This document shows positions 21,801 through 55,863 of a stretch of 64,000 nucleotides of DNA, one piece after another. The stretch lies in assembly GCF_025602895.1 (NCBI RefSeq), contig NW_026516236.1, positions 393,621 to 457,620 of the forward strand, in the 5' to 3' direction. The notes under the pieces are model-generated. The model saw only the letters and a program-made list of their open reading frames with translations. It was not told the DNA's origin and made no database searches. Positions within the stretch are counted from its first letter, which is position 1, and every line of letters starts with the position of its first letter. The translations under genes were made by a program, and so were the position numbers. Origin of the DNA: Polychytrium aggregatum (Eukaryota; Chytridiomycota; Chytridiomycetes; Polychytriales).

Positions 21801-24800
21801 AGTATCTGGGCAACTCGCCCCGCCTCGTGATCACGCCCCTGACGGATCGCTGCTACCGCACTCTGTTTGGTGCCTTGCATCTCAACCTCGGAGGTGCCCC
21901 GGAGGGCCCTGCCGGCACAGGCAAGACCGAGACAACCAAGGATCTCGCCAAGGCCCTGGCCAAACAGTGCGTCGTCTTCAACTGCTCAGATGGCTTGGAC
22001 TACCTTGCCATGGGCAAGTTCTTCAAGGGACTTGCCTCTGCTGGGGCCTGGGCCTGCTTCGACGAGTTCAACCGCATCGATCTCGAGGTGCTTTCGGTCG
22101 TCGCACAGCAAGTGTTGACGATCCAGCGCGCTATAGCCATGAAGGCGCGCGACTTTATGTTCGAAGGCACCAAGCTGGTGCTCAATCCAACGTGCGCCGT
22201 GTTCATCACCATGAATCCAGGCTATGCTGGCCGATCCGAGCTGCCGGACAACCTCAAGGCCCTGTTCCGTACCGTCGCCATGATGGTGCCCGACTACACC
22301 CTCATAGGCGAGATAACCCTGTACTCGTTTGGCTTTATCGAGGCGCGCAACTTGGCCCGCAAGATCACCGCCACCTATCGACTTTGTTCCGAGCAGCTGT
22401 CGTCGCAGGACCACTACGACTACGGCATGCGGGCGGTGAAGAGTGTCCTCACCGCTGCCGGCAACCTCAAGCTCAAATATTCAGAGGAGGACGAGAACAT
22501 CCTGGTGCTGCGGTCCATTATCGACGTCAATCTCCCAAAGTTCCTGTCGCAGGACATTGCCCTGTTTAAAGGCATTGCTACGGACCTGTTTCCGGGCGTA
22601 CAGCTGCCAAAGCCTGACTACGAGCTGCTCGAAGGTGCAATCCAGAAGGCTTGCGCCTCGATGCATCTGCAAATGGTGCCCCCGTTCCTCGAGAAGATCA
22701 TACAACTCTACGAGATGATGCTGGTCCGCCACGGCTTCATGCTTGTTGGCGAGCCATTTGCTGGCAAGACGTCGGCATACCGGGTGCTCGGGGATGCCTT
22801 GGGCGATTTGGCAGTGACCCAGGGCGGCGAAGAGTGGCAGAAGGTGCAGTTCAAGGTCATCAACCCCAAATCGATCACCATGGGCCAGTTGTACGGCCAG
22901 TTTGATCCGGTTTCGCACGAATGGACGGACGGCGTTTTGGCGACGTCGTTTCGAAGCTTCGCCAGCTCTACGAGCCCGGATCGCAAGTGGGTCGTTTTTG
23001 ACGGGCCTGTGGACGCCATCTGGGTCGAGAACATGAACACTGTCCTGGACGATAACAAGAAGCTTTGTCTCATGAGCGGCGAAATCATCCAGCTATCCAA
23101 CACAATGAGCTTGGTGTTCGAGGTCATGGACCTGGCTGTGGCTTCGGTACGTGGCTGCTCGGAGCTCACTCCACCGCTGGGATTCGGCCATTGCAGCGGC
23201 CACTCGCGGTTCTGGACTCATGCTGTATTGGGTCGTGGCTAACTGGATATTTGCTTGCAGCCTGCAACAGTGAGTCGCTGCGGAATGGTCTACATGGAGC
23301 CTGAGCGACTCGGGTGGCGGCCGCTCCTCAGTTCGTGGCTCGAGCGCATGGAAACTCTGCGCCCAGAGTATGCCAAGTACATCAGCCAGCTCTTTGAGAT
23401 CTTTGTGCCTCCGTCAATCCAGTGCGTTCGCAAGGACTGTCGTGAGCTCTCCCCAACATCCGATATCGGTCTTGTCAACTCGCTCATTCGGCTGCTCGAC
23501 AGCCAGATCGCCGAGTTCCAGGAGGCCAAGGTGACAAAAAACGACAGTCTGCTTAAACAACGACTCGAGTGCTTCTTTTTGTTTTCGCTTGTCTGGTCGG
23601 TTGGCGGCAGCGTTGATACCCCAAGCCAGCTCAAGTTCGACCACATGCTTCGTAGCCTGCTCTCGCGCCTGAGCACTCCGCTCACTCTGCCTATTCCCGA
23701 TGAGGGAACCGTTTACGACTATGTCTTCGAGACGAACGAGGATGCCGATCGATGGACGCTCTGGCTCAGCACCATTCAGCCAACCCCCATTCCAGCCGAG
23801 GCAGAGTTCAACGACATTGTCATCCCGACAAAGGACACGGCACGCTACAACTATCTCATGGACCTCTTGATCACCCACAACAAGGCCTTCCTGATTGTCG
23901 GGCCAACCGGCACGGGCAAGTCCAAGTACATCGGAAGCAAGCTCCTCACGGGGGTCTCCAAGGAACGATACATCCCGCTCTTCATCAACTTTTCAGCGCG
24001 CACGAGCGCCAACCAAACCCAGGACATTGTCATGTCCAAACTCGACAAGCGGCGCAAGGGTGTCTTTGGTGCCCCTGTCGGGCGCCGGTTCCTGATCTTC
24101 ATCGACGATCTGAACATGCCAGCCAAAGAGCAGTACGGTGCCCAGCCCCCGATTGAACTGTTTCGCCAGTGGTTTGATCATGGCAACTGGTACGACAAGA
24201 AGGACACCTCTCGGCTGGAACTCATCGACATTCAAATCATGAGTGCAATGGGTCCGCCAGGCGGTGGCCGCAATGCGGTAACACCGCGGTTTCTGCGGCA
24301 CTTCAACCAAATCGTCATCAACTCCTTTGACGACATAACCATGTCGCGCATCTTCAACTCAATCTTGGACTGGCACTTCAATCGCTTCGAGTTTACCGAG
24401 GAAGTGATCTCGCTGGGCACCAAGATCGTCGATGCCACGACCAACATCTACAAGTGGGCCGTGGAAAACCTGCTGCCAACGCCCGCAAAGACCCACTATA
24501 CGTTCAACCTGCGGGACTTTTCAAAGGTCATCCAAGGCCTAGTTCTGTCCAAGCCGGCGTTCTTCCCCGACAGCGCCAACATCATCCGGCTCTGGGTGCA
24601 TGAGGTCTACCGGGTGTACTACGACCGCCTGGTCACCGACGACGATCGATACAGCATCTTCTCGCACATCCTGGATGTTGTGAAGCAGTGCTTTGATTGC
24701 GAGCCAGACGAGATCTTTGCCCGGATCGCCACAGGAGAGGATAATGTTCTCATGGAGGAGGACATGAGATCGCTGATTTTTGGGGACATTCTGAGCAAGG

Positions 24801-27800
24801 GCAAGCCTGGAGCAGAGGCCGATTACATCGAGCTCAAGAGCTACGACCAGATCACAGAGATTGTGCAGACCTTTATGAACGAGTACAACCAAGTCAAAAA
24901 AGCCAAGCTCAACTTGGTGCTCTTCCGATTTGCTGTCGAGCACGTTGCCAAGATTTGCCGTATTCTGAAGCTGCCTGGCGGCAACGCCCTCTTGGTCGGC
25001 GTCGGAGGAAGTGGACGCCAGAGCCTCGCTCGGCTCGCCTCGTTTATATCGCAGTACGAGCTCTTCCAAATCGAGATCTCAAAGCAGTACGGCAGAAACG
25101 AATGGAGAGAGGATCTCAAACGCATCCTGCTCCTCGCCGGGGCCGACAATCGAAAGACCGTGTTCTTGTTTCCGGACACCCAGATCAAGGAAGAGTCATT
25201 CATCGAGGATGTCAGCAACCTACTCAACGCCAGCGACGTGCCCAATCTGTTTGCAGCCGACGAACGACAGACAATCATCGAGCGCTGTGTCGAGAACGCC
25301 AACGAGGAAGGAAAGGCCGGCGATGGATCCCCTGCAGCGCTCTACAACTACTTTGTCTCGCGCGTCCGAAACAACCTGCATATCATTTTGTGCATGAGTC
25401 CCATCGGCGACGCCTTCCGATCGCGACTGCGGCAGTTCTCGTCGATTGTCAATTGCTGCACCATCGATTGGTTCCAGGCTTGGCCAGACGACGCTCTCCA
25501 GGCCGTTGCCAAGCAGTTTCTGCATGACATTGACACGGACGAGTCCATCAACGAAGCCATCGTGTCCATGTGCCGCCTGTTCCACCAATCGGTGATATTC
25601 CTCTCGGAAAAGTTCCGGCTGAGCCTCTCCCGCCACAACTATGTCACGCCAACGAGCTACCTTGAGCTGCTCCATGCCTACAAGACGCTGCTGGCTGCCA
25701 AGCGCAGCGAGGTGTCGGCAATCAAGTCGCGCTATGCAAACGGCCTGAACAAGCTGCAGTTTGCGGCCGAGCAAGTCATGCGCATGCAGCGCGACCTCGG
25801 TGATCTCCAGCCCCAGCTCAAGCGCACCTCCGAGGAAACCACCGAGATGCTTCTCAAGATCCAGAAGGAATCTGTTGAAGTGGAAGCGACCAAGAGCACT
25901 GTCGCTGCGGACGAGGCTGTGGCCTCTGCCAAGGCAGAGGAGGCCCAGGCAATCAAAAACGAGTGCGAAAACGAGCTCGCCCAAGCGCTCCCACTCCTGA
26001 ACGCCGCCTTGGCAGCCCTCGATACCCTCAAGAAGAGCGACATTGATCTGGTCAAGGCGATGAAGAACCCGCCGGACGGCGTCAAACTTGTCATGGAGGC
26101 TGTCTGTGTCATGAAGGACATGAAGCCGGAGAAGGTTCCAGATCCATCCGGCTCCGGAAGGATGGTCTTTGACTACTGGAAGACCTCCCTCAAGATGCTG
26201 GGAGACCCAAAGTTCCTGGAAACCCTCAAGATGTTTGACAAGGATGATATCCCGGCGCACGTCATCAAGAAGATTCGGCAGACCTACATCCCGAATCCCG
26301 AATTCAAGCCCGACAAGGTCCGGAACGCCTCATCGGCTGCCGAGGGCCTGTGTACCTGGATCGTTGCGATGGAATCGTATGACCGCGTGGCCAAGGTGGT
26401 GGCCCCGAAGCAAATCGCCCTTGCCCGCGCCGAAGCGGAACTGGCCGAGACCATGGCAGGTCTGGCTGAGAAACGGGCAACGCTCAAATCCGTGGTTGAT
26501 CGCCTGCAGGCCCTCGACGACAACCTCACGGCGCTCTCTCGAAAAAAGGACAGGCTCGAGAAGGAGGTCAAGAGCTGCGAGGAGCAGCTCGACCGTGCGC
26601 AGAAGCTTCTGGGTGGACTCGGCGGCGAGAAGCAGCGCTGGACGGAAGTCGTCCACCAGCTCGACGGAACCCTCTATCATCTGACCGGAGATGTGCTGAT
26701 CTCGGCCGGTGTGATCGCCTATCTTGGCGCATTCACCAAAATGTATCGACTCGAGTGCATAAACGAGTGGCTGAAAAACTGTCGCGAGTACCGCATCCCA
26801 TGCTCCGACACATTCTCCCTCGACAAGACCCTGGGCGACCCGATCAAGATCCGCGCCTGGAATATTGCTGGACTGCCGACCGACCAGTTCTCGATCGACA
26901 ACGGAATCATTGTCCAGAACGCGCGCCGATGGCCGTTGATGATCGACCCGCAGGGCCAAGCCAACAAGTGGGTCAAGAACATGGAGAAGGACAACAACGT
27001 CATCATCATCAAGCTCACAGACAACGACTACATCCGCAATCTTGAAAACGCCATCCAGTTTGGCGTGCCAGTGCTGCTCGAGAACGTGAAGGAGGAACTC
27101 GATCCAATCCTCGACACCATCCTGCAGAAGCAGACCTTCAAGTCGGGCGGCACAACCTGCATCCGTCTCGGCGACGCCGTGGTTGAGTACTCGCCCAACT
27201 TTCGACTGTACATCACCACCAAACTCCGGAATCCGCACTATCTGCCCGAGCTTGCTGTCAAGGTCTCACTACTAAACTTTATGATCACGCCAGAGGGTCT
27301 GGAAGATCAGCTTCTCGGCATCGTCGTCCAGAAGGAGCGACCTGAGCTGGAAGACGAGAAAACACAGCTGATTCTGCAGTCGGCCGAAAACAAGCGCAAG
27401 CTCAAGGAAATCGAGGACCAGATCCTGCAGATTCTCTCGTCGGCCGAGGGCAACATCCTGGAGAACGAAACCGCGATCGAGGTTCTGTCGTCGTCGCGGG
27501 TTATTTCCGTTGAGCTGTTCGAGAAGCAAAAGATCGCCGAGGAAACCGAGCACAAGATCGACGAAACTCGCGAGTCGTATCGGCCGATTGCACGACACTC
27601 GTCCATCCTCTTTTTTTGCATCGCCGACGTTGGGAACATTGACCCGATGTACCAGTATTCGCTGGTGTGGTTCATTGATCTGTTTGCAAACGCCATCGTG
27701 ACATCGGCAAAGTCCAGCATCCTCAAGCGACGGCTGAAGAACCTGGAAACCCACTTCACGTACTCGCTGTACTGCAACGTCTGTCGATCGCTCTTCGAGA

Positions 27801-30800
27801 AGGACAAGTTGCTGTTCTCGCTGATGCTGTGCTACAACATTCTCAAGAGCCGCGATGAAATCGACGAGAGCGAGTTCCAGTTTTTCTTGACCGGTGGAAT
27901 CGGTCTTGCCGCCCCAAGCTCGGCCAATCCAGCTCCCGGGTGGCTCTCGGACAAATCGTGGTCGGAGATCTGCCGACTCTCTGATCTACCCGCATTCAAA
28001 GCAATGAAGGACGAATTTGTGCCAATCGAGTGGAAGATTTATGCCGAAAGCAACGAGCCACACATGCTGACGCCGCCGGGCAAGTGGTCCGCGCTCAACG
28101 ACTTCCAGAGGCTGATACTGACTCGCATTATGCGGCCCGAGAGAGTCGTCCCTGGCATCCAAGAGTACATCAAGATCAAGATGGGTCACAAGTTTATCGA
28201 GCCGCCCAACTTCAATCTGGCCGAGAGCTTTGATGACTCGAGCAACAGAACGCCGCTGATCTTTATTCTGTCACCAGGAGTGGATCCTATGGCGCAGTAA
28301 GTGCGGATGTCCTGGCGGTATTATCGTCATGGAGAGGCGCGGAGCTTCAGCACCGGCGAAGCCGAGCGCAGGCTGAGGCGAGTTGCGAGGATGGCACGGC
28401 GGCGACAGCATATGCGAGGAGTATATATGAGAAGCACTGTGATCCAAGCTGCTGGACTGGTGGATCGACGAGTGAGGCGGTGAATGCTGTGGACTGCGGC
28501 ACGATGTGTCCACACGGTGCTGGGTATGCCACGCCGTGCCTGGCGATGGGGTGCTGATGCTTCTGTTCTCGAAACAAAGGCTCCTGAAGTTTGCCGATGA
28601 CAAAGGCTTCTCGGGCGCAAAGTGCCAGTCCATTTCACTCGGCCAAGGCCAGGGTCCAATCGCCGCTGCGATGATCAAGGACGCTCAGAAGCTCGGCACA
28701 TGGGTTGTGCTCCAGAACTGCCATTTGGCGGTCAGCTGGATGGGTGTCTTGGAGAAGATTGTTGACGACATGACTTCGGGTGCTGTCCACAAGGAGTTCC
28801 GACTGTGGCTTACCAGCTACCCGAGCCCAAAGTTCCCGTCCTCCATCCTGCAGGCCGGTGTCAAAATGACAAACGAGCCGCCAAAGGGGCTGCGAGCCAA
28901 TCTGATCAAGAGCTATCTGTCCGACCCCATTTCCAACGAAAAGTTCTTCTACGGGTGCTCGAAGCCTGCCGAGTGGGAGAAGCTGCTGTTTGGGCTGTGT
29001 ACCTTTCATGCCATTGTGCAGGTACGACAGCACGGCTGCTACATCGTGCGCTCGACTGCAATCAGTGCCCTTGCAATCGAGAGTCACCGAAATTGCATGG
29101 CGTGTTGCTGATTCCACTTCGCTTCCGTGTATGTATCGGATTCAGGAACGGCGCAACTTTGGCCCACTTGGATGGAATATTCCGTACGAGTTCAACGAGT
29201 CTGACCTGAGTAAGTGCAGCATGCATAGCGCCGTGGACACATGAATGTCCCGGCCTTCGACTGACGCACCCAATCGCGCTATTTCGTCGCCGTATACAAA
29301 CTGCCTCGCAACAGGAATTAGCATCCGACAATTGCAAATGTTCTTGGACGACTATGCCGAGATCCCATTCAAGGCCCTGACCTACCTGACGGGCGAGTGC
29401 AACTACGGCGGGCGAGTGACCGACGACTGGGACCGCAGGACGCTGATGAGCATCTTGACGACGTTCTACAACCCGGCGGTGATCGAGGAGGCTCAGTACA
29501 AGTTCTCGCCCTCGGGTATATACTATGTGCCGCCGCGGGGCAAGTACGAGAGCTATCTCGATTATATGAAGGCACTGCCGCTGAACCCGAGTCCAGAAAT
29601 CTTTGGCATCCACGACAACGGCGACATTGCGCGGCAGCTCGCGGAAACAAAAGGGCTGTTTGACTCGATCCTGAAGACCATGGAGGGCAGCTCGGGCTCG
29701 TCAGGGGCCGGAGGCAAGTCCAACGACGAGATCTTGATCGAGGTCGCAACCGACATTCTGTCCCGTGTGCCCGCCACGTTCATGATCGAGGCCGCCATCC
29801 AGAAGTACCCCGTGAACTACAACGAGAGCATGAATACGGTCCTGATCCAGGAGATGATTCGGTTCAACCGTCTGATCCAAGTGGTACTCGTGAGCCTCGT
29901 CAACGTCCAGAAGGCGATTCGCGGCTTCATTGTGCTCTCGGCCGAGCTGGAAGAAGTGTGCAAGAGCATCTTGGTGGGTCGAGTGCCGGCCATGTGGGCA
30001 GCCAGGTCATATCCGTCGCTCAAGCCGCTTGCAGCCTACGTCAACGACCTGGTTGCCCGAATCAGGTTCTTCCAGGAGTGGTACGAGCAGGGTTGCCCGA
30101 AGGCTTTTTGGATGGCTGGGTTCTTCTTTACGCAGTCGTTTATCACAGGTGAGTCTCGCCGACACTGATTTCACCCAGAGATTGCCACCGTGTCCGCACA
30201 GATTCCGCTGGTGCTGACGCAGCCGCCCTTTCTCCACCAGCAACGCTGCAAAACTATGCCCGCAAAAACACCATCCCGATCGACGAGCTTGGACTCGAGT
30301 TTGAGGTCCTGAAGACTCCCAGTGATCAGGCGCAGCAGCTGCTCCCACCGACCAGCGGCGTGCATGTCTTCGGCATCTTCCTCGAGGGCGGCCGGTGGGA
30401 CCGCAACACGGGATACCTGGGCGAGTCTCTGCCCAAGGTGCTCTTCGACACCCTGCCTGTGATCTGGTTCAAGCCTGTTCGCCAGGCCGACATCAAGAAG
30501 GACAACCTGTACGTCTGTCCGATCTACAAAACCAGCGCGCGGAGAGGCGTGCTGTCGACCACGGGTCACTCGACCAACTTTGTCATTCCGATCCGGCTGC
30601 CATCGGACAAGCCAGAGAAGCACTGGATCATGCGCGGCGTCGCAGCACTGTGAGTATTGCCCAGCTATACAATGCGACGTATTCATGCGGGAGGGGCAGA
30701 GACAGAGGGGATAAACCCGACAGAGACGCCGCAGCGGTCGAGAGTATGCGGCGATCGAGAGTATGCGGCGATCGAGAGTATGCGGCGATCGACAGTATGC

Positions 30801-43432: not shown

Positions 43433-44848
43433 AGCCTGCTCTTCCTCTTCCTCCACTTCCTCTTCCCACCGTCACTGGATGACCCTGTGGATCTGCGCTA
43501 TCCCGCGGTGCGCTTTTCCTGTCTCCCATTTGCCCGCCCTTGTTGTCTGGCTGTTGTCTGCGCTGTGTTGTGTGCTGTTTCTTGCTGTCTTTGCCTCGTC
43601 TGCCTCGACCGAATGGGTTCCTCCCCTCCTTCTTCCTTGCACGTATTTATACCAAGCAAGCCTCTCGCTTTGTCTTGTACCTCTGGCTGGCCTCTGACCG
43701 GGATTGCGTTGCCCAAGGGCCGCTTTCCCTGCACCCGACCCACCACCGCCATCATTTACGACCCCTCCTTCCAGCCACGGCGCCTCTGTTCGTTTGTTTT
43801 TGTTCCATTTTCTCCTTTGCATTCACTCATTCATCCATTCATTCATCCATTCTATCATGGAGTAGCGTGACTCTTCCACGCTGACGCTCGCACTTCCTGC
43901 TCTTCGTTGCTGTCTCCGCTGGCACGAAGCACGAGTGCACCATGCTGTTGTATATACATCCACCCCCGCACTTCCCTCCCTGCATCTGCTTTGACCCGGG
44001 TCGCCTGCTGCCGTCTCTGGTTTGCTGCGTCATGCTTGCCCAAGCTCACTTGTACATTTATTAGCACACCCTCCCCCCCCCATTCGGTTTCCCCCCTCTC
44101 CCCCATCCTCTTTGCTTTCCCATCCCCACAAGCCATCAACGCCTCCCTCTGTGTATGTTTTCCACCACCACCCACCCACATCCTGGTCCTCCATTTTTTG
44201 CTCTCAGATTTTCCCATTTCTTGCTCAGTTTTCCTCTGACATTCTCGAGCCAAGCGGAAAGTAGGACATGCTGGACTGCCCTGTCTCATCCGCCCCTCCC
44301 CCGTCACTTTGGTGGTGAGGAGTCTCTTTCGTTGTTTGTTGTGGTCGAACGTTTTCTGGCCGAGTTCCCCCCTCCCCTCCATCATTGATTTGCACTTTTG
44401 TCGTATGGTTGTTTTACAATGAAAGGAAGAGTCAAAATAACAAAAAGCTGTGGTTTTCCTCTTGATCTATATGGCTCCAGCTTTGGCAACAGCGGGATTG
44501 AACGCAGTGGCATATGAACGATAGCGAGCACCATGTTCGTTTCCTGTCTTCTCTGTGCGCTCGCTTCCACAGCAGCCCGCTGGCCACCAGGCGAGAATCA
44601 TGATCTGCTGCTTGAGCGCAAACTTGACCCGCGATTGGTTGTTGGCTCATGTCCTTGCTCTGGTTCGAGCCGGCCCGAGCCAGCCTCGGCTTCTTCGCAC
44701 CCAAAACGATCTGACACTGCACTATGAAAAAAATTGTTGTTAATAAAATGAGCGAGAACGAAAAAGCGCGCTCTCGGAGCCACCTCGGTCGGCGAGAAGA
44801 GCAGTCTCTGGCGAGAGACCCCGAGGAAAGGCGAGAAGCCTCTCGCCG

Positions 44849-44918
<70 letters not shown>

Positions 44919-45080
44919 CCGCACACACACACACACTTTGCACACACACACTTTGCACAAGGGAGTCAAACACCTCCCATCGACCATCCCAAGAGGGATG
45001 GCAACCCCGAAGTGGACTGCCCAGAATATGGGCGACCCGGCATCCACTGTCGAAATGCACAAGGAACAGTGCGAGATACT
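43433..45080. other. Pyrimidine-rich intergenic region with CA microsatellite
   Basis: 1.6 kb downstream of the unrecognised gene. It is C/T-rich with CATT-type short repeats (43820-43855) and a long CA microsatellite. No supported gene. Confidence 0.5.
44850..44917. repeat. Dinucleotide microsatellite (CA)34
   Basis: 68-bp perfect CA run, followed by two shorter CA runs interrupted by TCCG and TTTG up to about 44957. It lies about 160 bp left of the Fanzor element terminus. Confidence 0.97.
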
Positions 45081-45110
45081 TACAGTCTATCCAGAAAGAA
45101 ACGGGACAGT
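45081..45110 (-). repeat. Terminal repeat, left end of element A
   Basis: Begins TACAGTCTATCCAGAAAG and continues into AAACGGGACA. It matches the inverted right terminus of element B at 23 of 28 positions by eye. The Fanzor stop codon (45087-45089) lies inside it. Confidence 0.8.
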
Positions 45111-47759
45111 CACTTTCTGGCTTCTGAAGCCCGCTGACTGACTGTAGGCCCAGCGGGTAGGCCATGGCATTGCACTCCTGTCTTCGTCGGCAATCTCCTT
45201 GATTTTCGTTGGTTTGGGAAGCACAGTCTTGAATACACCCGGTCGATCTCCTGTGGCGATGATCGACTGGCATACCGAGATCATGTTCCTGGCTGCATTG
45301 ATGTCTCGATCCCACAGCGTATGGCAGCTTGTACAGCTCCGTACATAATGTGGCTTCTCGATATCAAGATACTCGACCTTCTCGAGTCGCTTGGCTTCCC
45401 GGCAATGTGAGCACACCTGGGATGTGTTGAACTCGTTCACCGAGCACACATGGATCTTGGAGACGGATCGGTCTGGTGGGCCTCTCTGGTGGTGGTGGAA
45501 CTGCTCGAAATACTTGGCAAACCTGAGTCTCCTGGGACTGGAAGCATATCCCTTCCCCTGTTTCCAGGATGCATTCCCAAAGGCAATCACGATGTCGGTC
45601 TCCTTTGGTGCCTGGTCAATGACTTGCTTGCACATCTCGTGGACGGTGCGCTGTCGCTTGCTGTGGAGATCAAGCCGTTTGAACCGCCGTCGCCGGGTCA
45701 GGCTGAAGTACAGCTGTTTCTCCAGCATGTCTCCATCGAACACATGGCGAATGTATTGCAGGAATGAAGCCAACCCAGGGATCTTGGGACTTGGTGTGGT
45801 GCTCATCCATTTCTGCAGACCAAGGATCTTGTGGGTGCTCTGGATCCACTTGGTCGCTTGGGTGGTGCCAGTTCGATGCTGGTACTCCTTGTTGGAGAAC
45901 GACACGATCTTCTCGTTGGCACGCTGTGCCTTGGTCACCTTGACACCGTCTTGCTCCTGGATGGATGGTTGACCGGGTGCCCGAATGACAGCGGTGAAGA
46001 TCGATCCCACACCAGGGTCGATCCCGATCCATGTGGTCCGAGAGTCGTCGATGGGACCGACCCTGGTCTGGGTCTTCTGCTCAGGAGTGAGCTTGGGTGT
46101 CTTGTCGTCCTTGTCCACGGTTTCTGGCTTGACATCAGGGTCCTTCTTCAGGATCTTGTATCTGAGCGTGGTGATCGAGCACCCGACTCCATCGGTGGTG
46201 ATCTCGCAACCAAAGAGCTGCTTCCCCTCCTCCCTGGCACCAAAGAGTCTCGAATCCAGCTTGAAGTTGGTCTGCCAGAAGGTCTCTTGCTTTGTGGTGC
46301 CATTGACCTTGGTCTTCAGGTCGTCCCACTTGAGACCAGTGCCAGTCTGGTATCCAAGGATTTCCCACAATGCTTTGGTGTCGAGCTTGACATACTTGGC
46401 TCTGGCATCGCAGAGCGGGACCAAGGTGCACTGTGCTCGAGGGGCATTGTGTCGCTTCTTGGTCTGGGCAAGCCGGTCGGTGAGGCGCTTGATCCGTTTC
46501 ATGTTCACAGCGATCTGCTTGCACACCTCCTCGTGCTGGGTCTGGAGTGCGTTGTGCTTGTCAGGCAGCCTTCGTTCGATGGCGCGACACATCTCCTCAT
46601 TCAGTCGCCCACGCTCTCCTTTCAGGCCAATGGTTTCTCTCACGAGCCTGGGAATGATCATCTTCTGAAAGACCACCATGAAGAGGGCCTCCTTCAGGTG
46701 GGTCAGCCGAGAGACCTCACTGGCCAGTTTCGATACAAATCGATACAGGTCTTGGTGGCTTTCGTACCGAAACTCATACAACTGGTCGGCATGTGTGGCG
46801 TAGGCTCTCTTCAGATCAACGAGGAGTGTCTTGGAGAGGGGATTCTCCATCAGCTTGACACAATCATCGACGTGTGTATGCCGTTTGACATCCTTCGGAG
46901 CAACCAGGACCAGATTGCAGAATCGACGGAGGAGAGACCAGTAACGATCGAGAACGTGGGTCTCACAGTTGACTGCATAGGTCTTGACAGCCAAACCAAG
47001 AACCTGTGAGCCAGTACTCTTTGGGAGGGACACAGGAGGCAGGATACACGATTCGCTCCATGTACTTCGATACATCTCATAGGTGTCGATGATGTGCCTG
47101 TCTTCTTGGGTCGTGCCTTTCTTGACACTAGTCATTCCTGTCTGCACTATGTTGAAGCATTTTCGAACGAACGCGGGTTCACTCGACGACACAGTGGGGA
47201 GAGTGATACCCTCGTCCAAGCACCGCCTGAGATGAAGCTCCAGGAGACGAGATGCTTCGAACTGCACTTGAGTCATGGCCCGAACAGTCTCCTCGATCTT
47301 GTCGTGCAAGGCATCGTTCTTGATGATGGCATCGAGAGTGCACTTGATGATTGAGTACTCGGCCTTGACTTGCTCGTTGGGGTCACAGTCAGGCAAGGTA
47401 GAGCTCCAGAGTGGGTTCTTCTTGGTACACAATGAGCTGCTGCTTTTGGCATGACCCTCTTCCCCGCACGTGGCACATACAGGGACCTTGGGTGCGGGCA
47501 TCTCGACCACGAGGGCTGGGAAGGCAGTGTCCTCGCTGGGCTCGTCTGGAGGGGGTGCTTGGCTGACCATTTCAGCGACCGAGGCAGAGCCAGAGGCAGG
47601 GCTGCTGTCGATTCTGGCTGTGCACTTCTTGGTGAAGGGTTTGACGTGGTTGGTCAGTCCACAGGAGGGACACGATTTGATGGTGGGCTTTTTGGCCACA
47701 GGAGAGTCATTGGGTGATCCTGGATCGGGATCGGGGGATGTCTTTCTCTTGGGAGCCAT
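45087..47759 (-). CDS. Fanzor RNA-guided nuclease (TnpB-like), intact copy A
   Basis: Eukaryotic TnpB homolog; family members cleave DNA guided by an omega RNA encoded at the element's end. A single 890-residue frame, started at MAPKRK to match MPPKRK of copy B; a Met at 47819 is also open. N-terminal zinc knuckles: C30-C33-H38-C46 and C95-C98-H103-C111. A conserved helical region follows (MTQVQFEASRLL). RuvC-like core: WIGIDPGVGSIFTAV (D581), then IAFGNASWKQGKGY where TnpB would carry its glutamate. The alternative glutamate is E776 in NEFNTSQVCSHC. A zinc ribbon (CSHC, CTSC) and DRDINAARN (D819) follow. The last ~40 residues extend past copy B and run into the terminal repeat. Probably Fanzor1 type. 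No introns seen, unlike neighbouring host genes. Confidence 0.9.
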   Translation of the reverse strand: MAPKRKTSPDPDPGSPNDSPVAKKPTIKSCPSCGLTNHVKPFTKKCTARIDSSPASGSASVAEMVSQAPPPDEPSEDTAFPALVVEMPAPKVPVCATCGEEGHAKSSSSLCTKKNPLWSSTLPDCDPNEQVKAEYSIIKCTLDAIIKNDALHDKIEETVRAMTQVQFEASRLLELHLRRCLDEGITLPTVSSSEPAFVRKCFNIVQTGMTSVKKGTTQEDRHIIDTYEMYRSTWSESCILPPVSLPKSTGSQVLGLAVKTYAVNCETHVLDRYWSLLRRFCNLVLVAPKDVKRHTHVDDCVKLMENPLSKTLLVDLKRAYATHADQLYEFRYESHQDLYRFVSKLASEVSRLTHLKEALFMVVFQKMIIPRLVRETIGLKGERGRLNEEMCRAIERRLPDKHNALQTQHEEVCKQIAVNMKRIKRLTDRLAQTKKRHNAPRAQCTLVPLCDARAKYVKLDTKALWEILGYQTGTGLKWDDLKTKVNGTTKQETFWQTNFKLDSRLFGAREEGKQLFGCEITTDGVGCSITTLRYKILKKDPDVKPETVDKDDKTPKLTPEQKTQTRVGPIDDSRTTWIGIDPGVGSIFTAVIRAPGQPSIQEQDGVKVTKAQRANEKIVSFSNKEYQHRTGTTQATKWIQSTHKILGLQKWMSTTPSPKIPGLASFLQYIRHVFDGDMLEKQLYFSLTRRRRFKRLDLHSKRQRTVHEMCKQVIDQAPKETDIVIAFGNASWKQGKGYASSPRRLRFAKYFEQFHHHQRGPPDRSVSKIHVCSVNEFNTSQVCSHCREAKRLEKVEYLDIEKPHYVRSCTSCHTLWDRDINAARNMISVCQSIIATGDRPGVFKTVLPKPTKIKEIADEDRSAMPWPTRWAYSQSAGFRSQKVTVPFLSG
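45119..45157 (-). ncRNA. Candidate omega RNA hairpins at the 3' end of Fanzor A
   Basis: Two adjacent inverted repeats sit just inside the left terminal repeat: CCCGCTG/CAGCGGG (45130-45157) and GGCTT/AAGCC (45119-45131). In the TnpB/Fanzor family the guide RNA scaffold is transcribed from this position, overlapping the ORF end. Folding and expression are not shown here; the assignment is inferred from position. Confidence 0.4.
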
Positions 47760-47870
47760 CTGGCGAGAAAATAGCGACGATGGCTGGTTCTGCCCTTGGG
47801 GAAGAAAAATTCTCTTCAAAACCAGCGCAATTTTGGGCAGGGAGTGATGCTCACAGTGGCGTCCTTGATT

Positions 47871-47920
47871 CAGATCCAGAAACGCATCGCTCGCTCAATC
47901 AGTCGTGGGAAGACATCTTG
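47871..47920 (-). pseudogene. Residual 3' end of Tc1/mariner-like transposase in element A
   Basis: On the minus strand it reads KMSSHD-stop-LSERCVSGS, matching QMSSHG-stop-LNVRGASGS at the transposase end of element B. Only this tail remains upstream of the Fanzor gene. Confidence 0.6.
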
Positions 47921-48452
47921 TCAAGGTGAGTCTTGCCTGATAGCCAAACGATCATGTCATCTCGCTGACACACAGCCACGCTTGACTAGGTTTCCAACCA
48001 GAGAGATTCAGATGGTGGTGGTTCTTGTCCGCAATCGGAGTGGAGCTTCCAACAATGATACAATTGGTCATTCCTCCACACCAATCGCCCACCACCACCG
48101 TCAATCGGCTCAAGGTGATAACAAATGCCGTCAACCGACCATGGCCGGATTCCAACTTTTGCTGCTCCACATTCGACGTGACTTTCAGGTGACCGAGATG
48201 AGCAGCCGCGAGGGGCCGGAAAAAATTGATAGTGATGGGTGCGTCTTGAGGCCTGCATTCGAGCCGCACTCCATCCGCTATGAATGAAATGTTCATTCTC
48301 GTGCGCAGCCTGGTCGGATGGCGTGGAGCCGACGTGACTGTCGCGTGACCGCAGGGTGTTCAGCCACAGCTTCCCGCTCGTGCTTGCTGCTGCCCATGTG
48401 CAATTCGACGATGCCTGGGGCTGGTCGCTGACCTGCATCCCACGCATTTGCC
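47921..48452. other. Intergenic region between element A and MscL
   Basis: About 530 bp with no recognised coding sequence. It must hold the MscL promoter. I looked here for the missing right terminal repeat of element A and did not find it. Confidence 0.5.
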
Positions 48453-50187
48453 ATGTCCGGCCGCCGGAGAAAGCCCAGCGACGCTCCAACGCCGCCTCCA
48501 CCAGCGCAGTTTCCCACAGACAGCTACTCCCAGTTGTCCCACCAGGCGCCAGCCGCGACTGCTCCAAGCTCATCCGCGGCGGAGGTCTCGGAGCAGAGGG
48601 GACAGCAAAGTCGAGCCGATGCAGGAGCACAATCCACAGCCGCTCTGGGCCTCAAAAGGCTGCGATCGATCGATGCGATCCGCAGTTCAAGCGATCTGGT
48701 CCGGCAGATGATCCAGACGGACTTTTGGAGGGATTTCAAGACCTTTATTGTCCAGGCAAGCAACTACCTTGGCATTGGCAGACTTGCATGCTTGACGGAT
48801 GATGAAATGCCGCCATGAATCACCAGGGGTTGTCGATGAATGGCTCATCATGTTGGCCCGTGCTTGTTTCAGACTCGAGTTTTGGAGACGGGAGTTGGTG
48901 TCATTATCGGGAGGGCATTCCAGGACATGGTTAGGTAAGCCAAATCATCCGAGCTATCATGGCGACTGGACAAACGATATGATACGATATGATACGATAC
49001 GATACGATACGATACGATACGATACGATACGATACGATACGATACGATACGATACGATACGATACGATACGATACGATACGATACGATACGATACGATAC
49101 GATACGATACGATACGATACGATACGATACGATACGATACGATACGATACGATACGATACGATACGATACGATACGATACGATACGATACGATACGATAC
49201 GATACGATACGATACGATACGATACGATACGATACGATACGATACGATACGATACGATGTGCAAGTAAAAGTAGACAAGGATATTCCCCTAAAAACTCGA
49301 GCAGATGCGCTCCACACTTATATACACTTCAGAGTCGTGACTCAAAGCTCAAAGTTGCCACTGGGAATGCGGCTTCGGCTGTAACTAACGGCGCGATCAA
49401 AAACGCACAGGAGCTTCGTGAACGATGTCATGGTGCCACCGCTGACGCTGTATCTGTTTGGTAAGTCGGAGAGACGCTGCGTTGTCAGCGGATGCGTGTG
49501 CATCTTGGCCATCAAGATATGGCCGAGAATACCATAGCAGAATGATGCGGGTGAGCGCGAGTGATTCGCCGATTGGCTTACGCCCATATCAACTTGATAG
49601 GCGACAATATCATCAACTTCTTTATTTTGCTCAAGTTGGGCAAGTCCGGACGCATCCCTCGGACACTGGACGAGGCACAGACCGACGGAGCTACCACGAT
49701 CCGGATCGGCAAGTTTGTCCGCCAGCTTATCAACTTCCTGACGGTCGGGATTGCCGTGTACTGGCTCCTTGGATGTAGGTGCTTCATGAAAATGCGGACC
49801 CGGATGAGGGCGCGAGTGGCCATGAAAAGCAATGTCCAGGCTCCGATTCTGCGATCTGAGCGGTGCCATACTCCATGTCTCTCAGCCCTCAAGCGGTTTT
49901 TCCAGTGGAAGCTCGATCTGCAACAGACAAAGCGATGCACATTCTGTCAGATGGATATACATCACAGAGCCGTGAGGTCAGTGGCGCACCTAAACTGCTG
50001 CGACTCTGTGCAAATCAGACCAACAAGGGTCGTCATATGCGTGGGCGTGGCGCCATAGTTTGATGTCACTGGAAGCTGACGGCTTCCGTTCTGACGGTTG
50101 TATCGCAGATGCCCGCACTGCACATCGCATTTGGCTACCGACGAAGCCTTGTCGGAATCTACACCGATCACCGTCGAGAAGCCGTAG
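48453..50187 (+). CDS. mscL: Large-conductance mechanosensitive channel (MscL family)
   Basis: Homolog of the bacterial membrane-tension release valve. Exons 48453-48755, 48873-48934, 49411-49460, 49601-49774, 49886-49976 and 50109-50187 sum to 759 nt, 252 residues. After a ~90-residue disordered N-terminal extension come FWRDFKTFIVQ, the first transmembrane helix GVGVIIGRAFQDMV, SFVNDVMVPPL, DNIINFFILLK and GATTIRIGKFVRQLINF. The second helix is LTVGIAVYWLL. A C-terminal zinc ribbon follows, CTFCQMDIHHRAVRCPHC, as in many bacterial MscL proteins. Splice junctions rebuild the bacterial helix without gaps. The first intron starts with GC (CAG|GCAAGC). Intron 48935-49410 carries a (GATAC)56 array. 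Location in this organism (plasma membrane or organelle) is unknown. Confidence 0.9.
48976..49255. repeat. Pentanucleotide array (GATAC)56 in an MscL intron
   Basis: 280 bp of uninterrupted 5-bp units, all GATAC except two GATAT units at the left end. It fills over half of the 476-bp intron. Because 5 is not a multiple of 3, frames on both strands stay open and give long artefactual pentapeptide ORFs. Confidence 0.97.
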
Positions 50188-51000
50188 ATAGCTGACTCTG
50201 GGGTGGGGCCAGAGTGAATTGCAGTCAGTCCAGAAAGAAACGTGATTGTTCCCCTCTGGCATCAGCGGCACATCACTGAATGGTCATGGCCAGCGCACGA
50301 TGTTTTGAATCAGGACATTCACCAATGCTCATACGGCCATTGATAGAAAATACGCGCGCTGCATCGCCGAATGAGCCACCGCTCTGAGCTGTACCGGTTC
50401 GTCCCTCTCTTCAATTATCTTTGTGCGGATGGCATGTATATTGACACCGCTGATGCCGAGTCAAGAATTGGGAGAGAGGAGGTGAATCTCAACCTTAAAA
50501 TTACATAAGATATACAGGAATAAGCGGGCTGAAGAACATGGACGATAGCGCAAAGCGTCCGATCGGGCAGTTGGCTGTGGTGCACACATGGAGGTCAAGC
50601 AGGCAACTGGGCAAACAAGCAAACAAGCAAGCAGGCAAAAGAGTACGGCGCATAAATGAGCTACACGCAGGAGCAATGGCAAACATCAACTTGGCTGGCG
50701 ACTTCCAAGCTTTCAATATTCCAAGATTCCAAGACCGAAAAGCTCGATATTCGACTTGGTCCCATCTATCATCTAGGCGACACTGAAGGTCCAGACCCAC
50801 GACGAATGCCTGTTCAGTCAAACGTCATCTTGCAAGCCAGCGGGCCGAGGTTCGAGTCAACTCCGAGACTCAGGCAGTTAAACAGAGCTGTCTACAACCA
50901 ATAAAATCGGATCAAGCGTTGTCTCGGTCTTAGTCTCAATCGATCGCCTGAGCTCATAGGTTGTCGCAGTGTCAGCTGGAGCCATGTGGCGAGGCAATCT
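50188..51000. other. Intergenic region between MscL and PAM16
   Basis: Contains a small transposon-derived fragment near its left end, then about 650 bp in which I see no coding pattern. An AAACAAGCAAACAAG-type short repeat occurs near 50608-50635. Confidence 0.5.
50219..50330. mobile_element. Deletion-derivative (MITE-like) fragment of the Fanzor/Tc1 element
   Basis: A left-type terminal sequence (50221-50242, sharing TCCAGAAAGAAACG exactly with element A) is followed about 40 bp later by GAATGGTCATGGCCAGCGC. That 19-mer is identical to the sequence at the transposase start codon of element B (55723-55741). The interior is missing and no clear second terminal repeat is visible. Confidence 0.6.
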
Positions 51001-51832: not shown

Positions 51833-52083
51833 CGGGGTGGAGGTGGAGGTGTTTGGTGGGACGATGGAGTCTGAGGACAACACGGCAGGAAAGGATACCA
51901 GACAGCGGATGCCTCAATCACGACGGCTGGGCGGAAAAAGTTTTGTGTGATTAGTCAGCCGCACTGCTTGCGGGCGGCTCGAATGGACGGCTCGAATGGT
52001 TGGATCGAATGCGGTGCTGCCAACCCGAACCAGCGCCGCGTCCACACCAATCACCATCTCCCCACAAATACAGCCATAAGGCT

Positions 52084-52111
52084 TACACTTTATTCAGAAA
52101 AAAACGGGATA
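52084..52111 (-). repeat. Left terminal inverted repeat of element B
   Basis: About 20 of 28 bases match the inverse of the right end by eye, strongest in the AAAAAACGGGA core. Confidence 0.7.
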
Positions 52112-52183
52112 ATATAGCCGTTTCCATGAACATGTAGTATGTGCTGTGCTCGCGTCTAGCAAAGCCACAAGAAATAAAACAGA

Positions 52184-54551
52184 TCACTTTGGCAGCCTCC
52201 GAGTGAAGACCGCCGGTCGCTCTCCGGTCTCCACAATCGACCTGCATACTGTGATCATGTTGCGCGCCGCATTGACGTCGCGATTCCACACTGTCCGGCA
52301 GCTGGGATTCTTGCAGCTCCTGACAAAGTGGGAATTCGCAACACTGGGCGCATCGAGTCCTTCCAACCGAACTGGCTCCAGGCACTTGGAGCACACTTGC
52401 GAGGTGTTGAACTCGTTCGTCGAGGCCACCTTGACGCTTCCATGATGGTGATTGGGACGGCGACGGTGGTGCTCGAATTGCTCAAAGTACTGAGCGAACC
52501 GCTGCCTCCGAGGGCTGGATGCATAGCCCTTGCCTTGTCGCCATGACGCATTGCCAAAGGCGATCACCACATCGGTCCGTATCGGGGCGTGCCTCAGGAC
52601 GGCCTTGCACATCTTGTCAACGGCCACTTGGCGCCTCTTGTGGCCCGTGAATCGATGGTGACGGGCCTTCTTGCCAAGGTGGAAGTCGAGCTGCACTCGC
52701 AGCTCCAGTCGCAGGACATGGGTGAGATGGACCTTGAAGGCTTCCGAGGACGACACCTTGGGCGAGGGGGTGGTCGACATCCAGGTCTCGATGCTGAGCT
52801 GCTTCTTCTTGGTATTGTGCCACTTAGTATCGGACCTGTGGCCACACATGTGCTGATAGTGACCATTCGAGAATGAGACCACCTCGTCTTGGTGGCCCGG
52901 TGCTTGGATGACCGCCGTGAAGATGGAGCCGACGCCTGGGTCGATTCCAATCCAAGTGGTGCGGTTGGGGTCTGGGTTGCCGATGGCCTGGATGCGCTGC
53001 TCGGCAGTCGGAGGAGGCTCGATGGTCTCGGTGTGATCGGTTCGACGCACAAACTTGACGAGGCCGATGGTGCATCCAATGCCATCGGTGCTGATCTCGT
53101 AGTTGAACAGCTTCTTGTTCACGTCCCGCTCTTGGAAGAGGGAACTACGCAGCTTGAAGCAACTGCGCCAGAGACGATCCTGGTTGTTGACACCGTCCTC
53201 ACCTTCTTCCTTGAGCTTGTCCCTGGTGAGTCCAAGGCGCTTCTTTGGACCCAGGAGCTCCCAGAGTGCGACGGTGTCGATCTTGACATACTTGGCCTTG
53301 GCTGTGCACAGAGGGACCATCGTGCACACGGCCGGAGGAGTGTCGAGAGCGAGCTGCTTCAGTGCCCACTTGATCCTGGATGCCAGCTTGTTGATCTTGG
53401 ACTTGGTGGTGCCGAGCTCAGACTTGGCCTTGGTGAACCTCTTGTCGTCGGAGGGAATGCCTTGGGTAGTGAGCTCGTCCAGCTTGGCCTGGAGCTGCAG
53501 CTCGGTGACTCGGAGGGCGGACATGTCACAGTCGATCCACTTGTGGACATTGTCGACCATCTTGTCCCGGGCGAGGATTCTCACATGGTGTGAGAGGCGA
53601 TGGAGGGCCCGGAAGCGGTCCTGGTCGCTGCTGTACCGAAACTCGTCCAGGATGTGGCCAAACTCGGGATAGAGGAACTCGAGATCGGCCTTGGGTGGAG
53701 TCTGCCCTGGTTTCTCGAAGAGCTCGAGACAGGCCTCGATGGCTTCGTGCTTATGCTTGTTGGCTGGGAAGACGGCAGCGCAGAAGCGGCGAAGGAGTCG
53801 CCAGTATGCCAGGTTGAGGTGGGTGGTGCAGTTGGTGGCATAGGCATTGACAGCCAGTGTGAGAAGCTGACTGTGAGCACCATCAGGCAGACGAGGGGCC
53901 GGAGGCAGGTCTGCGTGCCGAGTGGACTGGTAGATGCCAAAGGAAGCGACCAGCTTCTGCTCGTATTTTTCATTGTCCCTGGCTGTCAAGAGAGGCACCA
54001 GCCTGGACGATCGTGAAGCATTGGCGGATGAATGCAGGGGTGGACTTGGAGATGACGGGGACGGGAAGATCCTGCTCGATGCACCGGAGGATGTGCAGGT
54101 TGAGCAGCCTGGATGCCTCGAACTGGATCTGGGTCATGGCCTCGACGGTGGCCTGGATCTTGTCGCGGAGAGCGGGATTGAGACAACAGCCATCCATGGT
54201 CTGCTTGAAGCAGCTGAACTGAGGGGCCGATGACCTTCCATCCACGAGTGGGACGACAGAACTCTTGAGGGGCCGGTATTTGGGACATTTGCTGGTGTTG
54301 CAGCGTTCGTGATCGGTGCCATCGCACTTGGGACATCGCTTGCCGGTACTCGAGGAAGTAGATGGACCAGGCTCGGTGGGATCGACATCCATTGGATCTG
54401 CAGAAGCAGTGGTGAGCAACGGAGCAACAGAGAAACAAGCATGCGTGGGATCAAAATACGAACCAGAGACAGGCTCCGACTGTGACTTGGCTTTCTTGGG
54501 CCTGGGTGGCCGAGGCTGGCCATCACCGGTACCCTTGCGCTTCGGAGGCAT
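52184..54551 (-). pseudogene. Fanzor nuclease copy B, frameshifted
   Basis: Homolog of copy A in two overlapping frames. 54551-53970 encodes MPPKRKGTGDG, one zinc knuckle of CX2CX4HX7C form and MTQIQFEASRLL, ending at a TGA. 53998-52184 continues with YWRLLRRFC, WIGIDPGVGSIFTAV, IAFGNASWRQGKGY, NEFNTSQVCSKC, a second Cys pair and RDVNAARNM. All nuclease residues named for copy A are kept. Alignment with copy A puts a single-base shift around 53990-54015, in a stretch where A is continuous. No splice sites bracket it. A recent inactivating indel is likeliest; a programmed shift or an assembly error is possible. Copy B ends at LPK, about 100 bp before the terminal repeat. Confidence 0.85.
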
Positions 54552-54801
54552 GGGGGCAGAGGATGCTGGATGCCTGCCAGTGGTACTGGTCAGAACAGAG
54601 ACTTCTCTTTATCGTACAATGGCGCGATGATCAGATCAAGGCGAGATGAGGGAAGAAAGCAGCAGGACGAAGGTGTGGCATTTATACCCGAGAGCAGGAG
54701 CCCGTCTTTGCGGGCTGGTTGGAAGCGACCCTGTTCAAAAATCGCCGAGAGGTTCAAGCCAGGGATGTGATCGTGAGAATGGCGGAGTTGACAGGCCGTT
54801 T

Positions 54802-55726
54802 CAGACCCAGAAGCACCTCGCACATTCAATCAGCCGTGGGAAGACATCTGGAAGCACCCTCCGAACGGCAGACTCAAACAGATGCGACCATCCCGATCCT
54901 GAACCCCTCGGACGCATTCAGCGCTGCCTGCCTTCCTGTACTGGTGCTTCACAATCCCAAAGAAGTTCTCGATGGGATTGAAGTCGGGTGAAGGCAGGTG
55001 GGGTGAAGATCACTGACCATCCTCGGCGCTCGATGCAGTCCAGGACAGCCATTGTCTTGTGCATGCTGACATTGTCCATCACAATCACAGAGTCGTCTGG
55101 GAAGCTCGCTCGCTCAAAGAACTCGACCATCGAGTGTGTCTTGAATGATGTGGGGATGTACATACGATGCAGCACACCAGAGTGGTTGATGGCAAATGCA
55201 GCCGAGACAGACTTGTGTTTCATGTGATTGCGCTGGCGAAGCAGGAGCACCCTTCGGCGAGTATCCGTAAAGAGGGAAAATGGATTTCCTGATCCCTGTC
55301 TCAGTCGACAAAGACGAATCGTCGTGGGTCGATGGAGCGGACCTGGTCCCTGAACTGTGCCAGTCGCTTGGACTTGTAGAGGTGTGTTGCCCTCTTGTGT
55401 GAGAGACCTGCTCGGTGGATGGCAGTGTGGCAGAGTGAGAGTGATACTTTCCTCTGGAGGATGGACTCGAGCTTGCATCGCAACACAGGACCAGTCTGGA
55501 ACGGGTCCTGTTCAATCAGGGTGCGAATGACTGGACATGCCTGCTCGAAGAAAGTGGATCTGCGAGCTGGGACCCGGGATGGGTCATCCAGCTTGCATCC
55601 TCGGTGCCATCGATGGATGGTGTTCTTGGATACACTGAATATGGAGGCGACCTTACGCAGGCTATGGATGAGGGCGTAGCATCGCAATGCGGCGGTGCGA
55701 AAGTCGGATGTGTGGCGAATGGTCAT
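54802..55726 (-). pseudogene. Tc1/mariner-like (IS630 superfamily) DDE transposase, broken
   Basis: An N-terminal helix-turn-helix (SLRKVASIFSVSKNTIHRWH) starts about 85 bp from the right terminal repeat. The catalytic D1 is in RRFVFVD (near 55303), D2 in VIVMDNVSMHK (near 55090), and the third acidic residue is in SPDFNPIENFFG (near 54980). At least three frame changes separate these: just after FVD, within the following ~60 codons, and between TPPA and SPDFNPIE. The gene cannot make a full transposase as it stands. Confidence 0.85.
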
Positions 55727-55784
55727 GGCCAGCGCGCGATAACATTGGGTAACAAAATATTCGATGAATGGTCAAAAACCCGGG

Positions 55785-55812
55785 TGTCCCGTTTTTTATT
55801 GGATTGCCTGTA
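55785..55812 (-). repeat. Right terminal inverted repeat of element B
   Basis: Reverse strand reads TACAGGCAATCCAATAAA then AAACGGGACA. It is about 85 bp from the transposase start and matches the element A terminus better than its own left end. Confidence 0.75.
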
Positions 55813-55863
55813 AATGTTCATGAAACGAAGCAGGGCTCTCCGTGTTCGGGTGCAATGACATAT

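Follow-up and report, generated by a model that had tools for sequence, protein, structure and literature searches.

A Fanzor1 gene with the remnant of a Tc1 element in a probable CACTA-type transposon of the chytrid Polychytrium aggregatum

Fanzor nucleases are eukaryotic relatives of CRISPR enzymes, and Fanzor1 genes inside chytrid transposons are already known. According to the available portions of PMC10432273 and PMC3627910, the Fanzor1 protein SpuFz1 of Spizellomyces punctatus is the product of the sole open reading frame (ORF) of Spu-1, a non-autonomous inverted-repeat element with tens of copies, repeats of about 30 nt, putative TA duplications and 'ghost' copies in which the 3' end is retained; residues D383, E541 and D606 of SpuFz1 coordinate Mg2+ (PMC10432273, in part). 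Chimeric Fanzor elements, and Fanzor1 in several transposon superfamilies, have been described as well, among them the mariner-Fanzor1 elements and the chimeric sets PGv-1, PUl-1, PUl-4, DFa and PPa, which combine a Tc1/mariner transposase with Fanzor1 between repeats and show TA duplications; neither CACTA nor EnSpm is named in the accessible part of that paper (PMC3627910). Here we report on a 64,000-nucleotide stretch of DNA from the aquatic chytrid Polychytrium aggregatum (assembly GCF_025602895.1, contig NW_026516236.1, positions 393,621 to 457,620, forward strand), called the window below. It contains a Fanzor1 gene that lies, with a probability we put at roughly 70%, in a non-autonomous CACTA-type DNA transposon with a Tc1 remnant; the nuclease and guide steps are what we infer.

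The window family resembles Spu-1, as far as the accessible text on the latter goes, in being a chytrid Fanzor1 that is the sole ORF of a non-autonomous inverted-repeat element, in its tens of copies, in ghosts with a retained 3' end and in sharing the D-E-D residues. Unlike Spu-1, it has CACTAT ends, is associated with 3-bp duplications and includes a Tc1 relic; it encodes an 890-residue protein with N-terminal zinc knuckles, and its ghosts of about 1.5 kb share one deletion. Two other copies in the genome (L009 and L029) and a second Fanzor in the window resemble the mariner-Fanzor1 elements in the part of PMC3627910 available; the window copy differs from these in its missing left Tc1 end, a transposase reduced to the last codons and ends of CACTA type. 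It shares the CACTAT termini and 3-bp target duplications with CACTA (EnSpm) transposons, whereas it carries no transposase and its ends are only partly like those of larger relatives. What is new is the CACTA-type carrier with a Tc1 scar. In the literature searched, which mostly excluded subscription papers, 'Fanzor' and 'CACTA' were not found together, and a single paper has both 'Fanzor' and 'EnSpm', naming them as separate elements. A Fanzor survey by Jiang et al. (Science Advances, 2023) may list more carriers.

A preliminary description had placed the locus at 45087-47759. This span is correct for the ORF, but the mobile unit runs from 44720 to 48234, and the oddity of the locus is the carrier, which lies outside the ORF. 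The 5' end at 48234 is CACTATCAATTTTTTCC and the 3' end at 44720 reads CATAGTG on the minus strand; read inwards, the two ends are CACTATCAATTTTTTCC and CACTATGAAAAAAATT, both beginning with CACTA (CACTATCAA and CACTATGAA). With up to 2 mismatches allowed, the assembly (64.7 Mb, 418 contigs) contains 135 occurrences of the 5' terminus and 122 of the 3' terminus, of which one each falls in the window. Chance termini were rejected, reversed-pattern controls giving 0 and 0 occurrences. Counting full elements and ghosts together, with duplicates removed, 28 of the 42 distinct sites of insertion have an exact 3-bp duplication. By overlapping batch the counts are 14/20, 4/5 and 12/20, against 57/380, 3/20 and 18/380 when partners are exchanged, and no match was obtained for duplications of 2, 4, 5 or 6 bp at the 20 sites of the first batch. 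Most duplicated sites (22 of 28) have [AC]T at positions -4/-3. CACTAT ends together with 3-bp duplications are the mark of CACTA transposons. A transposase gene is absent from the element.

The middle of the element is a truncated Tc1/mariner element, made of a transposase tail, the Fanzor gene and the right Tc1 end. Two Tc1-bounded copies without CACTA ends, L009 and L029 (subfamily A2), are 85-87% identical to the window copy at the DNA level. Their homology to it extends from element position 317 to 3158 and 3154, stopping at the Tc1 end and TA, and therefore the window copy contains a truncated Tc1 element inside carrier DNA. The right end of both copies is CTGTCCCGTTTCTTTCTGGTTTGACTG, followed by TA and then by unrelated flanks, and the opposite Tc1 end is found upstream in both. 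L029 has an open Tc1 transposase frame of 324 codons (DDE_3, 8e-24). Position 317 of the window copy falls within the last codons of the Tc1 transposase, a relic of 50 bp that is 84% identical to the element of the second Fanzor. The relic of the right repeat, in which the Fanzor stop codon lies, is identical at 24 of 28 positions to the terminal repeat of family B, the family of the second Fanzor. Of the two ends and the DDE transposase of a Tc1/mariner element, only the right end and the final codons of the transposase were found in the window copy. Exact copies of the A2 right end number 25 in the assembly, and eight of them lie 84 bp downstream of Fanzor matches. Around the remnant, the carrier DNA amounts to 316 bp and about 360 bp and is CACTA-type.

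This arrangement suggests that the same Fanzor changed transposon superfamily, from Tc1 to CACTA-type. A Tc1 element with its Fanzor would have landed in, or been captured by, a CACTA-type element and would then have lost its left end and nearly all of its transposase; a CACTA transposase supplied in trans may then have amplified the resulting Fanzor element. The steps of a Fanzor1 transfer between superfamilies are rarely visible, and here one genome holds both the before (Fanzor and transposase frame together in a Tc1 element) and the after (a CACTA-type element with a Tc1 scar). The features of the element are collected in Table 1.

Table 1. Coordinates, in window positions, of the Fanzor element and its parts.
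Feature	Position	Strand	Basis or remark
Whole mobile element, subfamily A1, 3515 bp	44720..48234	minus	borders from 30 fetched copies
5' carrier DNA without Tc1 homology, element 1-316	47919..48234	minus	98.2-99.2% identity at 121-300, 87-91% at 1-120
Tc1 transposase last-codon relic (DVFPRLIERAM.FW)	47869..47918	minus	homology to L009/L029 from element 317
Fanzor1 ORF, 890 residues	45087..47759	minus	translation; profile and fold matches
N-terminal zinc knuckle 1, CPSCGLTNHVKPFTKKC, residues 30-46	47622..47672	minus	
N-terminal zinc knuckle 2, CATCGEEGHAKSSSSLC, residues 95-111	47427..47477	minus	
RuvC aspartate D581 codon	46017..46019	minus	aligns with SpuFz1 D383
Displaced RuvC glutamate E776 codon	45432..45434	minus	aligns with SpuFz1 E541
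Zinc ribbon CSHC...CTSC, residues 783-812	45324..45413	minus	Pfam PF07282, E 3.6e-10
RuvC aspartate D819 codon	45303..45305	minus	aligns with SpuFz1 D606
Tc1 right terminal repeat and TA relic, over the Fanzor stop codon	45081..45109	minus	L009/L029 homology ends here
Conserved non-coding block 1, candidate omega RNA part	44955..45079	minus	conservation and fold
(CA)n microsatellite between blocks 1 and 2	44850..44936	.	highly variable between copies
Conserved non-coding block 2 to element end, overlapping last CA units	44720..44862	minus	

In terms of a transposase source, PF02992 (Transposase_21), which we take to be a family of CACTA transposases, has 29 matches in the genome, 28 of them over the cut-off. 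Candidate helpers are 5.68-kb elements that contain a match of this kind and are 98-100% identical where compared. A PF13960 match, below its cut-off, was also seen in the larger relatives. The candidate helpers end in CACTATGAAAAAAA and CACGATGAAAAAA and show 3-bp duplications at 10 of 17 sites (3/272 with partners exchanged). Their end CACTATGAAAAAAA equals the 3' end of the Fanzor element over 14 bp, or over 13 in most copies.

The family also includes shortened copies. Besides pairs of 3.4-3.9 kb, matching up the first 100 entries for each terminus by eye gave 26 pairs of about 1.44-1.64 kb, two of 2.2 kb and two of 280 bp. Flanks were fetched for 20 of the 30 listed short pairs, and for L051 and L052, which add one member each to the 1.5-kb and the 280-bp class. 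One common deletion, from element position about 500 to 2368, removes Fanzor codons from about 10 to 630 in 15/15 members of the 1.5-kb class read (14 junction stretches and L051); therefore the element can multiply without its own Fanzor. L052 (295 bp) has a different, larger deletion. The ghost classes having a 3' end keep it, as do those of Spizellomyces in the available part of PMC10432273. An inverted variant, L053 (C51:45700-46870), was also seen, with two 5' ends and no 3' end within the stretch read.

As for the protein, it is a Fanzor1 whose D-E-D site is complete. When 45087-47759 is translated on the minus strand, a strand that the preliminary description did not give, it yields the 890 uninterrupted residues announced there, with a single terminal stop; the motifs GIDPG (D581), NEFNTS (E776) and DRDIN (D819) were found at the residues it had named, and the zinc ribbon was found as well. 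PF07282 (Cas12f1-like TNB domain) is the sole Pfam family above cut-off. According to the available part of PMC10711439, Fanzor1 has a DPG motif at RuvC-I and a glutamate six residues ahead of the zinc ribbon; GIDPG provides that motif, and six residues separate E776 from C783. D581, E776 and D819 are identical in 23/23 frames longer than 780 codons (30 copies fetched) and in 8/8 rows of a protein alignment of the window protein and seven homologues, which excludes a chance origin of the motifs. One of the four ribbon cysteines is replaced by serine in 1/23 long frames. Two zinc knuckles also occur in the homologue P0003 and one each in P0009, P0010 and P0011; none was found in P0008, P0012 or P0013. 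A third protein search for homologues found none. In viral contigs, searched for further homologues, 21 loci were obtained, every match lying between residues 646 and 876.

Compared as a profile with all solved structures, the 8-row alignment matched SpuFz1 (7.5e-61), PpFz1 (1.3e-51) and GtFz1 (1.3e-35) best, which bears out the proposed place in the Fanzor clade. The other 20 matches (TnpB, Cas12 and others), with the TnpB-like L79 at 5.2e-06 far behind these three Fanzor1 matches, lie near the C-terminal end only, from profile position 599 of 707. Bacterial TnpB (IS200/IS605, IS607) likewise corresponds to the window Fanzor only near the zinc-ribbon end, the Fanzor differing in its glutamate adjoining the ribbon and its much longer N-terminal half. 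Bacterial TnpB was rejected as an identification, with NCBIfam scores of 22.4 bits for guided_TnpB (cut-off 100), 22.2 for IS200_TnpB (425) and 16.8 for IS607_TnpB (350).

D581, E776 and D819 align with SpuFz1 D383, E541 and D606, which on a manual count with an offset of 394 correspond to positions 777, 935 and 1000 of the chain. The full-length structure model was poor (predicted local distance difference test, pLDDT, 54.4), and a model of residues 126-848 was used. It shows the Fanzor1 fold, with SpuFz1 aligned over model residues 132-846, and this match indirectly supports the expectation that the three acidic residues would meet in one site. The N-terminal half, which had been called unusually large next to bacterial TnpB, is much longer than in TnpB but normal for Fanzor1, as the same alignment indicates. 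That the window copy could encode an active nuclease is a fair reading of its sequence.

The Fanzor family is under purifying selection. The transposon setting proposed in the preliminary description agrees with at least 51 Fanzor copies in the assembly (best 51 of 1675 candidates scored; genome searches score the best candidates only, and counts from them are lower bounds). A one-off pseudogene was rejected on this count. There is no internal stop in 31/51 scored matches, and 20/51 have stops inside the match. The median identity of the copies is 93.1%, or about 7% divergence, and 23 of the 30 fetched copies have frames longer than 780 codons. Within subfamily A1 (16 frames, 120 pairs), nonsynonymous divergence (dN) is 0.068 and synonymous divergence (dS) 0.197, giving a dN/dS of 0.346 as a ratio of sums, with a range of 0.23-0.47; these values, like the residue conservation above, come from frames longer than 780 codons and lean towards intact copies. 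The second alleles L014, L020, L024 and L027 and the near-identical copy L004 were dropped from this set. Comparing A1 with A2 gives a ratio of 0.332, and when all 23 frames are kept, those of A2 among them, the median of the 252 pairs is 0.343.

One alternative treats the Fanzor frame as an open passenger: the nuclease would be inactive, and gene conversion would keep the frames open without functional selection. The stops in 20 of 51 scored copies fit this, as do the copies' apparently free swapping of sequence and the multiplication of the 1.5-kb ghosts that lack most Fanzor codons. We consider it unlikely in view of the dN/dS values within A1 and between A1 and A2, obtained from long frames only, and of the catalytic residues, kept in every one of the 23 long frames.

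The swapping of sequence is seen best at six fetched pairs of copies that share a site on two contigs, with both ends known for five. The five have flanks of 652-1000 bp that are 99.8-100% identical. Same-site pairs include L002/L020, L015/L016, L018/L024 and L022/L027. L013 and L014 are identical throughout, and in the other four pairs the elements diverge by 5.2, 2.5, 3.7 and 2.8%, with patches down to 82% per 200 columns. For 434 of 507 pair differences both variants occur among the other fetched copies, where random substitution would give 8-9%. Across 24 copies, the association of variants (r2) is 0.37 at distances under 20 bp and 0.05 at more than 200 bp; incompatibility between adjacent variant sites is lower than in every one of 1000 permutations. 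The patchwork reflects either very frequent ectopic conversion or mixing during assembly. Mixing would mean that reads of similar copies entered the consensus of one haplotype; linkage reaches background within about 50-100 bp, which is short for ordinary conversion tracts, and the patchwork is seen in assembled sequence. Most of the 150 listed reverse-transcriptase matches have equal scores, and they seem too alike to serve as a control repeat of similar divergence. Such an artefact is nevertheless rather doubtful, since the flanks remain 99.8-100% identical as far as the element boundary, several contigs are long (C364 1.21 Mb, C24 1.04 Mb, C157 0.65 Mb), and a full element stands against a ghost, a structural difference of 1.9 kb, at what appears to be the same site in two cases. 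These are the L025 site, with a full element on one contig and the common ghost on C166, and the L028 site with C378:245674, judged on 15 bp on each side. For L004 and C82, and likewise for L007 and C413, the right flank is common to full element and ghost while the left one seems to differ, a pattern that would arise if elements had recombined and so linked different sites.

The Fanzor might also act as a homing nuclease that cuts element-free alleles and so produces homozygous insertions and mutual conversion of copies. An empty second copy was found at 0/14 Fanzor sites against 10/12 helper sites (joined flanks, Fisher p 1.2e-5), and the [AC]T insertion motif is such as a Fanzor target-adjacent motif could leave. 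The searches scored the best 40 of 46 candidates for Fanzor sites and the best 40 of 92 first-look candidates (41 rows) for helper sites; a missing empty site may be unscored, though a spanning match would rank first, and one of the 28 flanks' own places is not listed for the Fanzor sites. A recognisable second copy exists at only 6 of the 14 Fanzor sites, all occupied (L003, L005, L025, L026 and L030 on both flanks, L028 on 15-bp flanks), and the other 8 are uninformative. Age explains the contrast equally well: Fanzor copies differ by about 7% and helper copies by 0-2%, and because the helper insertions are younger, age suffices. We therefore regard homing as quite unlikely. A wider form of the idea is very unlikely in our judgement, namely that the diploid shows the Fanzor at work, flank-guided cutting leading to homozygosity and breaks fuelling copying between dispersed elements, with one freely recombining pool and a possible change of carrier; the nuclease could change carrier under homing because repair restores any transposon carrying it. 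The same-site pairs make the benefit of the Fanzor to its carrier testable in one culture, through the behaviour of full, shortened and empty alleles.

The 3' non-coding part offers a candidate guide RNA. In block 1 the best 60-bp window (element 3181-3240, 19 copies) has a mean identity of 98.3%, compared with 88.5% at third codon positions, and its predicted fold has a z score of -2.88, with 2/200 shuffles as stable. Block 2 has 93.7-98.5% identity per 60-bp window and a fold z score of -1.16, which leaves a structure unsupported. Rfam gave nothing over the gathering score, one row reaching 21.3 bits against 45 on the opposite strand. We suppose that the protein would bind an omega RNA from this part of the element, with a guide taken from flanking DNA, and that the guided Fanzor may cut matching DNA, for example an empty copy of the site, where repair would restore the element.

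Several observations weigh against the reading of the locus as a Fanzor1 gene in a CACTA-type transposon with a Tc1 remnant and omega RNA guidance. The window copy is flanked by CAT and CAG, an imperfect 3-bp duplication, and 14/42 sites of the family are without an exact one. The candidate helper shares the terminal motif alone, and on one side; the CACTATCAATTTTTTCC end and the subterminal TCTCGCC motifs were not found in it. It also has [AC]T at -4/-3 in 2/10 sites, against the 22/28 of the Fanzor element (Fisher p 0.002), and because of this difference in target-site preference another transposase may be the real helper. The transposase of L009 is not whole, and no carrier without Fanzor was found among the best 40 of 310 candidates scored. 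Neither block 1 nor block 2 shows any compensatory base change. Furthermore, the ancestral guide position would now be constant element DNA, because the block past the Tc1 relic was once flanking DNA. An omega RNA ending at the old Tc1 end would carry a constant guide, unable to find its own empty site, a problem that would be avoided if the present RNA extends as far as the CACTA end.

Elsewhere in the window, the second Fanzor lies on the minus strand at 52184-54551, within an element at 52083-55813, and belongs to another family (best 73 of 1312 candidate copies scored). It is 42% identical to the first over 634 columns, its frame changes near codon 193, and the Tc1 element around it is bounded by 27-nt ends (74% complementary) and contains a transposase that has decayed. 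A sequence resembling a Tc1 end, CAGTCAGTCCAGAAAGAAACGTGAT at 50224-50250, lies between the two Fanzor elements and is perhaps one more Tc1 remnant. An array of 57 copies of ACGAT (98% matches) occupies 48974-49258, 740 bp beyond the Fanzor element. Among public P. aggregatum gene models, P0002 and P0004-P0007 fuse Fanzor pieces to a kinase, a male sterility protein and others (by Pfam accession or name), and these fusions are probably annotation artefacts. Finally, dynein heavy chain frames (AAA_6, AAA_8, AAA_9, MT stalk, Dynein_C) at 21374-30168 on the plus strand represent an ordinary host gene.

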